A stretch of DNA of 64,000 nt. Origin: Myxococcota bacterium. GTDB lineage: Bacteria; Myxococcota_A; UBA796; UBA9615; JAKLKC01. The position numbers and the translations under genes were made by a program. The stretch lies in NCBI GenBank assembly GCA_023150875.1, contig JAKLKC010000027.1:18348-82347 (forward strand), in the 5' to 3' direction. This document shows, in pieces, positions 12,866 through 34,259 of this stretch (position 1 is its first letter; each line of letters opens with the position of its first letter). The notes beneath the pieces are model-generated. The model made no database searches and was not told where the DNA came from. It was given only the letters and a program-made list of their open reading frames with translations.

Positions 12866-14938
12866 TCAGGACCGGTGCGTTCCCGACGCGGTGCGGGACT
12901 CTCCGCCCCCGACGGGGACCTCGGCGCTTCGGGGCAGGGTCAGGGTGAACGTGCTCCCCCGGCCCACCTGGGAGCGTACCTCGATCCGGCCGCCGTGGGC
13001 GGAGGCGATCTCCTTGCAGATGTACAGCCCGAGCCCCACCCCGCCGGCGCCCCGGGTGTCGCCCCTCTCCACCTGGTAGAACTTGTCGAAGAGGCGGGGC
13101 AGGTCCCTCTCGGGGATCCCCCGGCCGGTGTCCTCGACCTCGACCACCACCGCCCCGCCCTCCCCGCGGCAACGCACCGAGATCCGCCCCCCGGGATCCG
13201 TGAACTTGCACGCGTTCTGCACGAGGTTCGCGAGCACCTGCTCGACCCGGGGCGGGTCGCAGCGGACGACGGTCCGCTCGGGGTCCGAGCCCTCGTAGGA
13301 GAGCTCCAGGCCCCTCTCGTGGGCCAAGGTGGCCTGGGCTTCGACCACCCTCCGCCCGATGGGGTCCACGGGGGCGAGACGGAATTCGTAGGTCATTCGA
13401 CCGGCGGCGATCCGCGAGATGTCCAGCAGGTCCTGTATCATTCCCCGGAGGGTCTGGGCCTGGCGGTACACCACGTCGAGGAAGCGTTTCTGCTGATCGG
13501 AGACGGGGCCGGCGCGACCCATGAGGACCAGGCGCGTGTAACCCTCGATCCCCGTGAGGGGAGTCTTGAGCTCGTGGGTGACCACCGACAGGAAGTCGTT
13601 CTTGAGTTGCTCCGCCTCCCTCTCCTGGGTGACGTCCCGGAGCACGGCCACGAAGCCCCGGGGCTCCCCGTGGGGGCCGACCAGGGCGCGGCGGACCACG
13701 CGGACGGCCCGCGGGGGGGAGTCCGCCCGGGGCCCAGGCGCCGAGCAGTCGGAGGAGTCCTCGCCTCCGGCCATGGGTCGGCTGAGGGTCTCGAGCCCCG
13801 CGGCGGCGACGGGCCTCCCCGGCTCCAGCCTCGCCTCCCCGACCAGGCCCAGGAGCGCGTTGGCGTGGCGGTTCAGGATCACCACGCGCCCCTGTCCGTC
13901 CACGAGGAGCGCGCCGTCCGCCATGGAGTCGAAGGCGGTGCCGAGACGAGTGTTCCGCTCCTCCAGGTCCAGGATCGTCCGCGCCAGGTGCTCGCGCATC
14001 TGCCTCATGGCCTCGGCGAGCACCCCGAACTCGGTGGCGGGGTCCAGCGAGGGGATCCGCACCTGCTCCTGGCCCCGGGTGATGGCCTCCGCCGCGGCGG
14101 TGAGCGCTTCCACGGGGGCGCTGATCAGCCCCCTCATGCGGAGGGAGGCATACACCGCCAGCAGTCCCAGCAGGAAGGGCGGGGCGACCACGAAGGGGAG
14201 CCACGTGCCCAGGAGGCCCCGGGTCGCCTCCAGCTCGGACTCGGTGAGGGAGCCCAGGCCGTACCGGAAGCTCCGGTAGGCGCGGTCCATGTCCCGGAAC
14301 CTCGCGTCGGCCTCCTCCGGGGTCGGCTCGGCGGGCCGGGCTTCCCCGGCGACCGCCCCCTCGCGGGGGGAGGGGCGCGCCGCTCCCCCACTCCCGGCGT
14401 CCTCGTCCCCGGGTCCGCCGGTGGGCTCGGGGAGGCGCTCGGGGGCGGGGAGGAATCGCGGCGGGACGGCCCTGCCCGAGTCCCACCACCGCCGGGCCTC
14501 GTTCTCGAACAGGCGGAGCTCCATGGCCAGGGAGGACGAGCCGGAGGCGAGGCCGCCCTCGAGTTCCCGGTGAAGGGCCTCGAAGTCCGCCGCGGGGAAG
14601 GGATCGGCCTCCTCCCCCTCGGTTCGGGCCGCCCCCAGGACCAGGAGCCGCGTGTACACGGCGTCGGTGGCCCGCCCCAGGTCCCAGGCGGCGTGGTGCG
14701 TGGATCGAGCCCCGTCCACCTTCTCGCCGGCGAGGCGCTCGGCCAGCACGAAAGCCGCCACGCAGGAGACGAGGCTCAGGCCGCAGGCCAGGAACGCCAG
14801 GCTGACCTGGTAGCGGACGCCCCGGGCGCGGCGCGCCCTCACGAGGACCTCGGCGACATCGCCGCAGCATGGCCGGAGGGGCGGAGGAGGGTCAAGGGGA
14901 ACGGGAGGACGGCGCGTACCCGCGCCCCGTGGAGTCAC
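12866..14938 (-). CDS. Membrane sensor histidine kinase (HAMP, PAS, HisKA, HATPase_c)
   Basis: Two TM segments, NDFLSVVTHELKTPLTGIEGYTRLV H-box, NLVQNACKFTDPGG N-box, VEDTGRGIPERDLPRLFDKFYQ and GVGLGLYICKEIASAHGG. The true start may be up to about 90 nt downstream of the ORF start. Confidence 0.9.
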   Translation of the reverse strand: MTPRGAGTRRPPVPLDPPPPLRPCCGDVAEVLVRARRARGVRYQVSLAFLACGLSLVSCVAAFVLAERLAGEKVDGARSTHHAAWDLGRATDAVYTRLLVLGAARTEGEEADPFPAADFEALHRELEGGLASGSSSLAMELRLFENEARRWWDSGRAVPPRFLPAPERLPEPTGGPGDEDAGSGGAARPSPREGAVAGEARPAEPTPEEADARFRDMDRAYRSFRYGLGSLTESELEATRGLLGTWLPFVVAPPFLLGLLAVYASLRMRGLISAPVEALTAAAEAITRGQEQVRIPSLDPATEFGVLAEAMRQMREHLARTILDLEERNTRLGTAFDSMADGALLVDGQGRVVILNRHANALLGLVGEARLEPGRPVAAAGLETLSRPMAGGEDSSDCSAPGPRADSPPRAVRVVRRALVGPHGEPRGFVAVLRDVTQEREAEQLKNDFLSVVTHELKTPLTGIEGYTRLVLMGRAGPVSDQQKRFLDVVYRQAQTLRGMIQDLLDISRIAAGRMTYEFRLAPVDPIGRRVVEAQATLAHERGLELSYEGSDPERTVVRCDPPRVEQVLANLVQNACKFTDPGGRISVRCRGEGGAVVVEVEDTGRGIPERDLPRLFDKFYQVERGDTRGAGGVGLGLYICKEIASAHGGRIEVRSQVGRGSTFTLTLPRSAEVPVGGGESRTASGTHRS

Positions 14939-31459: not shown

Positions 31460-33550
31460 TCAACGGTCGCCGCGCTTCTCCATGAAGCGCCCGAACTGGA
31501 AGGCGAGGAAGTTCCGGTACTGCCGCGCGGCGTGCCGCGAGAAGACGATGCAGCCCATGGTCTCCGCCAGCTCGAAGCCAGCCCGGCTCGCGCAGGTGAG
31601 CGTGCCGGGGGGCGCGATCACGATCGGCCGGGACTGCCCCCGCTCGGCGTAGTACGCCAAGACCCGGTCCAGGAGGCCGATCTGGGCGGCAGCCGAGGGC
31701 GCGGCGTCTCCCAAGCGGAGGTAGACGTGGGCGATGTTCAAGAGGTTGAACAGAGACAGGTCCCGGCTTCCGGTCTCGCAGAGCGCGATCCCGGCCACTC
31801 CCGCCCCGTCCCGGATGACGAACCCCTTGCGGCCCCGGACCAGCCCCCGGGCCGAGTGCTGGGTGCAGAGGTGGGGTGCGTCGACGTGGACGGGGTCGAG
31901 ATCGAAGGCGCCAGCGACCAGAGCCGGGACCTGGCTTGCCGCGAGGGCTGCGGCCTCCACCCGATCCTCGGGGCCGAGGTCGCCGACCGTCTCGCCGTCG
32001 CGCGAATCGTCGGGCTCGAAACCCGCCGCGGGCGTGCTGGTCCTCTCGAAGCGGTCGTAAGGCGCGATGACCACCATCTCGTCCGAGCGCATCCAGGAAG
32101 CGAAGGCGTCGAAGAACACACGGTGCCAGGCCTTCTCCCGGTTGAACCACGCCATGGCGTATCGGTGGTCGTCGTCCCGCGAGCCGAGCCAGGCGATGGT
32201 GTGGAGGTAGAGGGCCCTGCGCCCCTCGGAGGCGGCGAGTCCCTTCCCCACGGAGGCGAGCTGGTGATACATCCAGGTGTAACGGTAGATCCTGAGACAC
32301 GAGAGGTGCCCGCCGGGGATCCCCTCGGGGGAGTTGCACACGATGTCCAGGGACAGCCGCTCGTCCCCGGGAGGCGTATACCACGTCTCCGTGGGACCGA
32401 TCCCGGCGCGCAGATCCAGGTAGCCGGACTGGACGAGGAGCTCGTCCAGCAGCGCGCGGGGCACCTCGGACCGGGACACCAGGAGGGGGAAAGTCGTCTG
32501 GGACCAGAACCGGAACAGGCGCAGCCAGTCCCCCGTGCCCGCCGAGACCAGCTCCACGCCCACAACCGCCTCGCCGTCGCGCTGACCCGCATGCCGGACC
32601 CGGGCGTGGAACACCGCCTCTCTCCCGAACAGCGTCATGCGCAGGCCAGGCATCGGTCCCGGCGGCACCGGCGGCCCTCCCGCGAAACGGGAAAGGACCA
32701 GGCCGCGGGGAGACAGCTCCACCACCTCCGCCGTGACCTCGCTGCCCGCGAGGAGGGGATGGGCGAGGCGCACGCCGAGGGTCCCCGGAGGGACTCGGGT
32801 ACGGCCGCTCGTCCGCCTCCCCCGGCTGAAGACGCGACAGGGGAGGGGGAGCACCAGGGTCCCTTCGTGGGTGGCCCGAAGCCTGCCCTCCAGGGTGAAG
32901 GAGGCGTCGTGGAGGGCGACGCCCACGACCGCTTCGGCGCCGTCCAGGACCGCCGCGGGCACCCCGCGGGGGACGAGCTCGATCCCCTCCGGACGCGCGG
33001 CGATGCCCTTGTCCAGCAGGTCGGCCGCCAGCTCCCTCCCGCCGCCCAGCTCCAGGGTGAGCCTCGGGCGGAGGCGGTAGAGGGAGGTCAGCACCTCCCC
33101 CACCACGGCCTCGTCCACCAGCTCGAAGCGGGCGTCGGCGGGGAGGTCGGCCTGGGGGCCGGTGGGGAGGGCGGCGGCGTTGGCGATGAAGCCGCCCACG
33201 CGCCACGCGTCGCCCCAGGGGGCGCGGGTGCGGACGTCGAGGGAGAGGCGGGCGAAGGAGGTGCCGGAGGAGACCAGCTCCACCAGCAGGCGGTTGCCCA
33301 CCTTCACCCGGGCCCGGCGGGGGAGGATCAGGCCCAGGCCCGAGACGCTGCGGTCGACGAAGGCCGCCTCGGCGGCGAGGTCCGGGACCCAGAGGGAGAG
33401 GCCGTCCGGTCCGCCCGGGACCCGGGGCTCGCGGCGGCGCTCGCCACCGCCCGGTCTGTCCTCCGAGCCCGGGGCGTGCCCGGGGCCGATCTTCACGGAG
33501 CTGGTCACGCCGCCGTCCCTGAGCCCTTCCCCCGCCGGCCTGGACAGCAT
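31460..33550 (-). CDS. Large cytosolic protein with N-terminal PilZ-like regions and a C-terminal acyltransferase-like (GNAT-like) region; function unknown
   Basis: ERRREPRVPG...FVDRSVSGLGLILPRRARVKVGNRLLVEL (PilZ-like RxxxR...D/NxSxxG); C-terminus GVAGIALCETGSRDLSLFNLLNIAHVYL...GFELAETMGCIVFSRHAARQYRNFLAFQFGRFME. Start uncertain. Confidence 0.55.
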   Translation of the reverse strand: MLSRPAGEGLRDGGVTSSVKIGPGHAPGSEDRPGGGERRREPRVPGGPDGLSLWVPDLAAEAAFVDRSVSGLGLILPRRARVKVGNRLLVELVSSGTSFARLSLDVRTRAPWGDAWRVGGFIANAAALPTGPQADLPADARFELVDEAVVGEVLTSLYRLRPRLTLELGGGRELAADLLDKGIAARPEGIELVPRGVPAAVLDGAEAVVGVALHDASFTLEGRLRATHEGTLVLPLPCRVFSRGRRTSGRTRVPPGTLGVRLAHPLLAGSEVTAEVVELSPRGLVLSRFAGGPPVPPGPMPGLRMTLFGREAVFHARVRHAGQRDGEAVVGVELVSAGTGDWLRLFRFWSQTTFPLLVSRSEVPRALLDELLVQSGYLDLRAGIGPTETWYTPPGDERLSLDIVCNSPEGIPGGHLSCLRIYRYTWMYHQLASVGKGLAASEGRRALYLHTIAWLGSRDDDHRYAMAWFNREKAWHRVFFDAFASWMRSDEMVVIAPYDRFERTSTPAAGFEPDDSRDGETVGDLGPEDRVEAAALAASQVPALVAGAFDLDPVHVDAPHLCTQHSARGLVRGRKGFVIRDGAGVAGIALCETGSRDLSLFNLLNIAHVYLRLGDAAPSAAAQIGLLDRVLAYYAERGQSRPIVIAPPGTLTCASRAGFELAETMGCIVFSRHAARQYRNFLAFQFGRFMEKRGDR

Positions 33551-33690
33551 AGCGCAAGCGCGCGGCACCCGCTCGCCGGAGAGGCGGCTTCGTCTCTCGG
33601 CGCACAATCGGGCGGATGGTCTTCCGAGCGCCCGACGCTCGGGGGATGCCGGTGCGCCCGGTCCCAGCCGGGTCACTGCGGGCCCGAGTC

Positions 33691-33878
33691 TTAGAGCGCC
33701 TTTCAGAAGTGGAGGACCGTCGTGAGGCGAGCGAGGCGGAGGCGACCGCAAGGAGCGGTGGGCCCCAGGCCCGGGGGGCGTAGTAGACCTACGTCTCCCG
33801 GGTCTGGGGGGACCGCGACGGCGCGGGCGCCCCGAATCGTTCGCCGCAGCAGGTCCGGGCTTCTGAAAGGCGCTCTTA
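33691..33878. mobile_element. MITE-like palindromic element: 16-bp perfect terminal inverted repeats flanked by TTA direct repeats
   Basis: TTA-GAGCGCCTTTCAGAAG (33691-33709) and CTTCTGAAAGGCGCTC-TTA (33860-33878); interior is also largely self-complementary, with the central hairpin CGTAG-TAGAC-CTACG at 33779-33793. Confidence 0.8.
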
Positions 33879-34259
33879 GAGGGCAGGCGCGGGGTCCAGG
33901 GCCGCCTGGACCATGCGGAGCACGTCGTCGACGTCGAAGGGCTTCTGCACCACCGTCATCGCCCCGAGCTGCCGGGCCTGCTCCGACAGGTCCCGCGTGT
34001 CGTGGGCGGTCATCAGGACCACGCGGCAGGCGGGCTCCCGCGTCTTGAACTTGCCGATCAGGTCCCGGCCGTCGCCGTCGGGGAGCCGCACGTCGAGCAG
34101 CACGAGCTCGACTCCCGGTCCGAACCGGGCCACCGCGCTGCTCGCGTCCTCCGCCTCCAGCACGTGGAAGCCCGCCTGGGTCAGGCGCGCCACCAGGGAC
34201 CAGCGGATCAGGAGCTCGTCGTCGACCACGAGGATGGTGTGGGGGGGCGGAGGCGTCAT
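33876..34259 (-). CDS. Single-domain response regulator (receiver)
   Basis: TILVVDDELLIRWSLVARLTQAGFHVLEAEDA, LVLLDVRLPDGDG, VVQKPFDVDDVLRMV. Confidence 0.92.
   Translation of the reverse strand: MTPPPPHTILVVDDELLIRWSLVARLTQAGFHVLEAEDASSAVARFGPGVELVLLDVRLPDGDGRDLIGKFKTREPACRVVLMTAHDTRDLSEQARQLGAMTVVQKPFDVDDVLRMVQAALDPAPAL

Follow-up and report, generated by a model that had tools for sequence, protein, structure and literature searches.

The window analysed here, a stretch of 64,000 nucleotides from a Myxococcota genome, carries a near-perfect 182-bp hairpin with TTA on either side, inserted at the stop codon of a minus-strand gene for a stand-alone response-regulator receiver (Table 1). The palindrome, the TTA pair and the perfect inverted ends (16 bp) described in the original prediction were confirmed in the sequence, and the right TTA is indeed the TAA stop of the receiver gene. 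As this duplicate serves as the stop, the insertion did not change the protein. The fold-back extends beyond the ends over the entire 182 bp, which formed a single hairpin of -148.1 kcal/mol including flanks, compared with -90.5 ± 4.8 kcal/mol for dinucleotide shuffles (z = -12). These results indicate that the stability of the hairpin is far above chance. The genes flanking the element are ordinary chromosomal genes. The claim that the element has no ORF of its own held in so far as it encodes no transposase, but unrelated reading frames pass through it. A scan of window positions 33500-34100 against Rfam 15 gave no match up to E = 1.

Table 1 Coordinates of the hairpin element, its conserved core and the adjacent genes in the window
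Feature	Position	Strand	Basis
Family A hairpin element, 182 bp	33694..33875	+ (RNA-like strand)	Sequence, fold, copies, strand asymmetry
Target duplication TTA, left copy, 3 bp	33691..33693	.	Sequence; TWA flanks likewise in other copies
Target duplication TTA, right copy, equal to the TAA stop codon of the receiver gene	33876..33878	-	Sequence and ORF
Left terminal inverted repeat GAGCGCCTTTCAGAAG	33694..33709	+	First 12 bases equal the L092 IS end GAGCGCCTTTCACAACC
Right terminal inverted repeat, reverse complement of GAGCGCCTTTCAGAAG	33860..33875	-	Sequence
Host gene, stand-alone response-regulator receiver, stop codon at insertion	33876..34259	-	ORF; Response_reg PF00072, 1.1e-22
Neighbour gene downstream, same direction, 696 aa	31460..33550	-	No Pfam match
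Conserved hairpin core, 143 nt (141-145 nt in families A-D)	33714..33856	+	R2 match, alignment
Internal loop 1, 5' side GUCGUGAG (family consensus GUYGCGAG)	33719..33726	+	Alignment
Internal loop 1, 3' side GCAGCAGG (GCAGCAG invariant in 12/12)	33846..33853	+	Alignment
Internal loop 2, 5' side GCAAGGAGC (loop bases RAGGA)	33748..33756	+	Alignment
Internal loop 2, 3' side GCGACGGCGC (consensus GYGACGMMG), tandem G.A conserved	33815..33824	+	Alignment

The genome (6.92 Mb in 180 contigs, 98% complete) was searched by blastn, and about 14 copies beyond the window element were found, at approximately 75% identity and with scores from 128 to 50 bits; several were truncated by contig ends. These approximately 15 diverged copies with 3-bp TWA flanks, hereafter family A, supported the original prediction of a MITE-like element with a TTA duplication and with further copies in the genome, and excluded a fixed single-copy RNA. 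Identical 3-bp flanks were present in four of the eight two-ended copies (TTA, TAA, TTA and TGA); the remaining flanks look decayed, with L003 and L006 retaining the gene-side stop. The ends themselves varied. Variants GAGCGCC and GGGCCCC are distinguished by changes that are paired between the two ends, and the ends of copy L013 (CAGGGTCGCC) were unrelated to other family A ends. Two of 15 copies were inserted in frame within genes, L002 (180+3 bases, L002:1503-1682) and L013 (183+3 bases, L013:1492-1674), adding 61-62 residues, and the L013 copy interrupts a sorting tail of the MYXO-CTERM type (TIGR03901). The copy at L008:1511-1776 has an additional asymmetric hairpin, about 84 bp long, in its 5' arm. 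The orthologous locus was absent from the relatives examined, so no empty site was seen.

GTDB genomes were scanned for the family A end sequence, and an 855-bp IS with GAGCGCCTTTCACAACC at both ends and a TAA/TAA duplication was found in another phylum, on Thermomicrobiales contig CADCWL010000032.1 (L092). Its transposase is encoded in two overlapping frames with matches to PF13340 (9.8e-23) and PF01609 (2.2e-27), and among annotated transposases of the plasmid collection the closest were ISAzba7/ISMra6-like, about 62% identical. The IS end agreed with the window element over the first 12 bases and with other copies over 15-17 bases. Elements of the IS1031 subgroup have the same properties as the L092 IS (PMC12016507). 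An IS with matching terminal repeats therefore exists, and mobilisation of the IS5/IS1031 type, as predicted, agreed with its ends, its transposase and its TNA duplication. Within the window's own genome, no PF13340 protein was detected in the 180 contigs (control genomes were positive), and tblastn for the parent transposase gave no match; the exact end sequence was in none of 70 other genomes of the class that were examined. These absences indicate that family A is old and that its transposase is gone from the genome. A parent IS was likewise lacking in this genome; an old MITE need not be accompanied by one. A candidate parent transposase sought through PF01609 was rejected, the sole match being an IS4-like element with unrelated ends. 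Dozens of copies of a 163-bp MITE with GAGCGCCTTTCACAACC as left end and a CTWAG target, not folding as a full hairpin, were observed in Salinicola species, and one copy of this type in Gilvimarinus (L101, L104, L084, L098, L133-L182). In many mycobacteria, a conserved non-repeat stretch ATCATCAGATTAGAGCCCCTTTCACAACCCAATGTTAGCACGG fits the end pattern by chance or as a conserved site (L075, L078, L085, L089, L091, L093, L100).

Base pairing was then compared among six full copies of family A aligned over 67 pairs. Both sides had changed in 27 of these pairs, and 92.0% of cells remained paired, compared with 81.4% after shuffling (0/500) and 38-50% in a control with slid partners. In a 12-sequence alignment of the core of families A-D (described below), 27 of 38 pairs were altered on both sides, with 92.7% paired versus 72.0% in shuffles and a covariation score of 0.557 versus 0.178 (0/500). 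Covariation thus exceeded the shuffled and slid controls, as expected of a structured RNA, in a small sample (six to twelve sequences) whose shuffles retain relatedness and in alignments of which some were sequence-based and a few columns are possibly misplaced. Strand asymmetry was assessed with a pairing rule that treats the DNA strands alike and is blind to RNA. In family A, 22 columns had G.U compared with 4 that had A.C (p = 5e-4); among columns paired in most copies, the counts were 14 and 3 (p = 0.013). The + strand folded more stably than the - strand in all eight family representatives. Such a surplus of G.U over A.C is what folding of the + strand as a single strand would produce.

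The other families were found with a covariance model first built from family A only, which recovered families B to D. Family B, in the same genome, has about 11 copies with ends ACTCGKGTTTCGCA and CTG or CAG duplications. Two further genomes of the same class carry families C and E in one and family D in the other, and the duplications of C and D are CTAG. A later model, R2, was built without families E, F and G and recovered all three held-out families (E from 9e-7 to 1e-4), being a weakly informative model (0.59 bits per position) with a short calibration. Family F lies in the window's genome and has ends GAGTCGGACACG and TCA duplications. The terminal repeats of these core-carrying families are unrelated to those of family A. 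The window core, whose sequence is part of the model, matched R2 with 115 bits (E 1.2e-18) on the + strand only; no match was found on the minus strand of the hairpin. In the controls, R2 gave nothing above background in 400 kb of Salinicola sequence or in an unrelated CTAG MITE, and Rfam on the loci of families B-E detected just a flanking tRNA and a chance IRES match. Ten copies were found by R2 in 1.26 Mb of the window's genome, which by extrapolation from these non-randomly sampled stretches would correspond to approximately 55 copies in the whole genome. The core is known within one class, from MAG-like assemblies that are broken at repeats. Twenty pattern matches in viral contigs were discarded, as none was backed by the model. 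A 277-bp hairpin with ends resembling those of family A (GAGCCCCTTTCACAACC) and TTA flanks in an Omnitrophota MAG (L074:7014-7292) has AAGGAAC and GTGACGCC at the loop-2 position (R2 E = 0.07), and is a lead, not a result, for a link of the core to another phylum. The window's genome also contains a second MITE of about 210 bp with ends TACGTCGTTCC and CTAG flanks, of which there are about 41 copies, most of them nearly identical (L066-L071, on contigs C31, C136, C121, C158, C118 and C55 of genome G000). Several contigs end at this MITE, which is without the hairpin core, and one copy is nested in a family A hairpin (C31).

Conservation within the core was concentrated in two internal loops, with consensus GUYGCGAG//GCAGCAGG for loop 1 and RAGGA//GYGACGMM for loop 2. 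Between families, identity was 96% in loop 1 and 82% in loop 2, compared with 58% for paired bases and 44% for other unpaired bases. Tandem G.A mismatches were invariant in the family A alignment. Two shorter hairpins in the same genome (L238:10680-10780 and 14826-14926) have GUCGCGAG//GCAGCAGG and no loop 2 (E = 0.15), and are possibly a reduced form.

We consider it probable that the element is a MITE moved in trans, in which a selected single-strand hairpin core of approximately 143 nt, most likely RNA, outlasts the ends and travels on several transposases. An IS5-family (IS1031-like) transposase, now absent from the genome, would have moved this non-autonomous DDE element in trans, and it would have inserted into a TWA site at the receiver stop codon. 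The cargo is predicted to be a structured nucleic acid of the + strand, most likely an RNA hairpin of approximately 143 nt with fixed internal loops, and selection would retain its fold while stem sequence and terminal repeats drift or are exchanged. Because a common core occurs on elements with other terminal repeats and target duplications, the core would be the persistent unit and the transposases its interchangeable vehicles. The ends may be exchanged by recombination between palindromic elements; nesting and palindrome recombination are the obvious candidates. The fold may be bound by a host protein or may otherwise aid the persistence of the element. Mixed gene orientation and copies in unrelated contexts indicate that it favours the element rather than the host gene. 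Our reading is accordingly of a selected single-strand fold, predicted to be RNA more likely than DNA, that benefits the element. The original prediction had set a mobile element and a structured RNA against each other as alternatives; this opposition was not upheld, as the mobile element has a core with covariation, conserved loops, strand asymmetry and carriers with unrelated ends. Whether the family is a truly transposase-agnostic mobile structured RNA, whose fixed-length core swaps terminal repeats and uses at least three target types (TWA, CWG and TCA) in one genome and CTAG in relatives, seems to us evenly balanced.

The clear transposition marks and the existence of a parent-type IS would also fit an ordinary IS5-type MITE, whose copies share ancestry and whose palindrome is a frozen accident with a fold under no selection; palindromic MITEs are common, and the copies are old and diverged. 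We regard this explanation as improbable and largely refuted by the retention of 92% of pairs despite changes on both sides, by loops more conserved than stems, by the same loops in elements with unrelated ends and by G.U being favoured on one strand. Compensated pairs could also arise without selection, since quasi-palindromes undergo arm-to-arm correction during replication, and template switching or gene conversion between the arms could account for the double changes in the terminal repeats. Such correction should remove mismatches, whereas no columns are better conserved than the internal loops, and non-pairing bases are conserved across independent families; it also predicts no excess of G.U over A.C, and we consider it quite unlikely as the source of the pairing. 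The marks left by a folded single strand of DNA would differ little from those of RNA. The folded form could be ssDNA that a recombinase, a transposase or a replication protein recognises, by analogy with integron attC sites and REP/RAYT hairpins: attC sites share the strand-specific fold, the conserved extra-helical bases and the freely covarying stems, and G.T is tolerated in DNA hairpins. The same ambiguity was left for a mobile single-stem motif (PMC11109978). However, terminal inverted repeats with short target duplications indicate DDE transposases acting on double-stranded ends, and conserved tandem G.A and G.U would be typical of RNA, so ssDNA is a possible but rather doubtful form of the fold.

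The stop-codon position raises the further question of a role for the host gene. Seven of 15 family A copies were located exactly at stop codons, including those of an SSB gene ending DDLPF, a CLC channel, a sigma-54 activator and the window receiver. Based on 1.26 Mb of the genome and a simple in-house gene caller, stop codons made up 9.8% of non-genic TWA sites, so that seven of 15 is an excess (binomial p about 3e-4), but 28.9% of non-genic TNA sites, against which it is not significant (p = 0.11). In Salinicola tamaricis, the 163-bp MITE, which has GAGCGCCTTTCACAACC as left end and duplicates TTA, was at stops in 6 of 35 copies, as its CTWAG target predicts (p = 0.57). A dedicated stop-codon-targeting element was weakened by the Salinicola control and the TNA null, although the excess over TWA sites persists. 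The excess would also suit an element acting as a 3' terminator or mRNA stabiliser, and published MITE hairpins can influence mRNA stability (PMC3733652). Against such a function, orientation relative to the gene was 3:3 among six classifiable stop-codon copies and the hairpin is without a U-tract; together with the TNA and Salinicola comparisons, this makes a host 3' role very doubtful. Much of the insertion at stops is explained by a target resembling CTWAG and the GC richness of the genome. The coincidence is not specific to the receiver locus, and target choice accounts for most of it; in the window we take it to reflect mostly target choice and purifying selection, with a residual excess possible.

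Among known systems, the IS1031 subgroup resembles the element in its 3-bp TNA duplication and short terminal repeats. ISLrh, an IS5-family member of this subgroup, has 857 bp, a TNA duplication and two frames (PMC12016507), and the L092 IS, with 855 bp, two frames and PF13340+PF01609, is similar. Family A differs from the subgroup in having no transposase in the window's genome and a full-length hairpin with a conserved core, which moreover occurs with CWG and CTAG rather than TNA duplications. By content, and compared by description, the core belongs with the structured mobile or repeat motifs of PMC11109978. One of them, MRSC-65-2, is a multi-copy long single stem with strong covariation, judged selfish and left open as RNA or DNA (PMC11109978), and the family of the window element is likewise a multi-copy long stem with strong covariation. 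By the same comparison of descriptions, MRSC-65-2 is defined by repeated UYCCGG, which is not among the invariant columns of the core alignment, whereas the core is marked by two internal loops and a near-fixed length, and its carriers show terminal repeats and several types of target duplication. Rickettsia palindromic elements are palindromes of about 150 bp, some of them in frame within genes (PMC10969869). The two in-frame copies of family A resemble these, but most copies are intergenic or at stop codons, and in-frame insertion is not the rule (2/15). NEMIS/Correia, ERIC, RUP and further structured MITEs of bacteria are short elements with terminal inverted repeats whose transcripts form long stem-loops; unlike the window element, most carry TA at their termini, and one core common to elements with unrelated ends is not reported there (PMC2229807).

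The customary view takes a MITE to be a defective transposon and defines it by its ends. In the present case conservation lies in the interior and variation in the ends, which points to selection on a nucleic-acid structure that employs several transposases. The findings are also a warning about the classification of repeats by sequence, in which a single structural family is broken up into unrelated MITEs. If this reading is true, the persistence of structured palindromes in bacterial genomes would become testable, since there are defined loop bases to mutate, a prediction of the strand, several families to compare and a covariance model with which to search for others.
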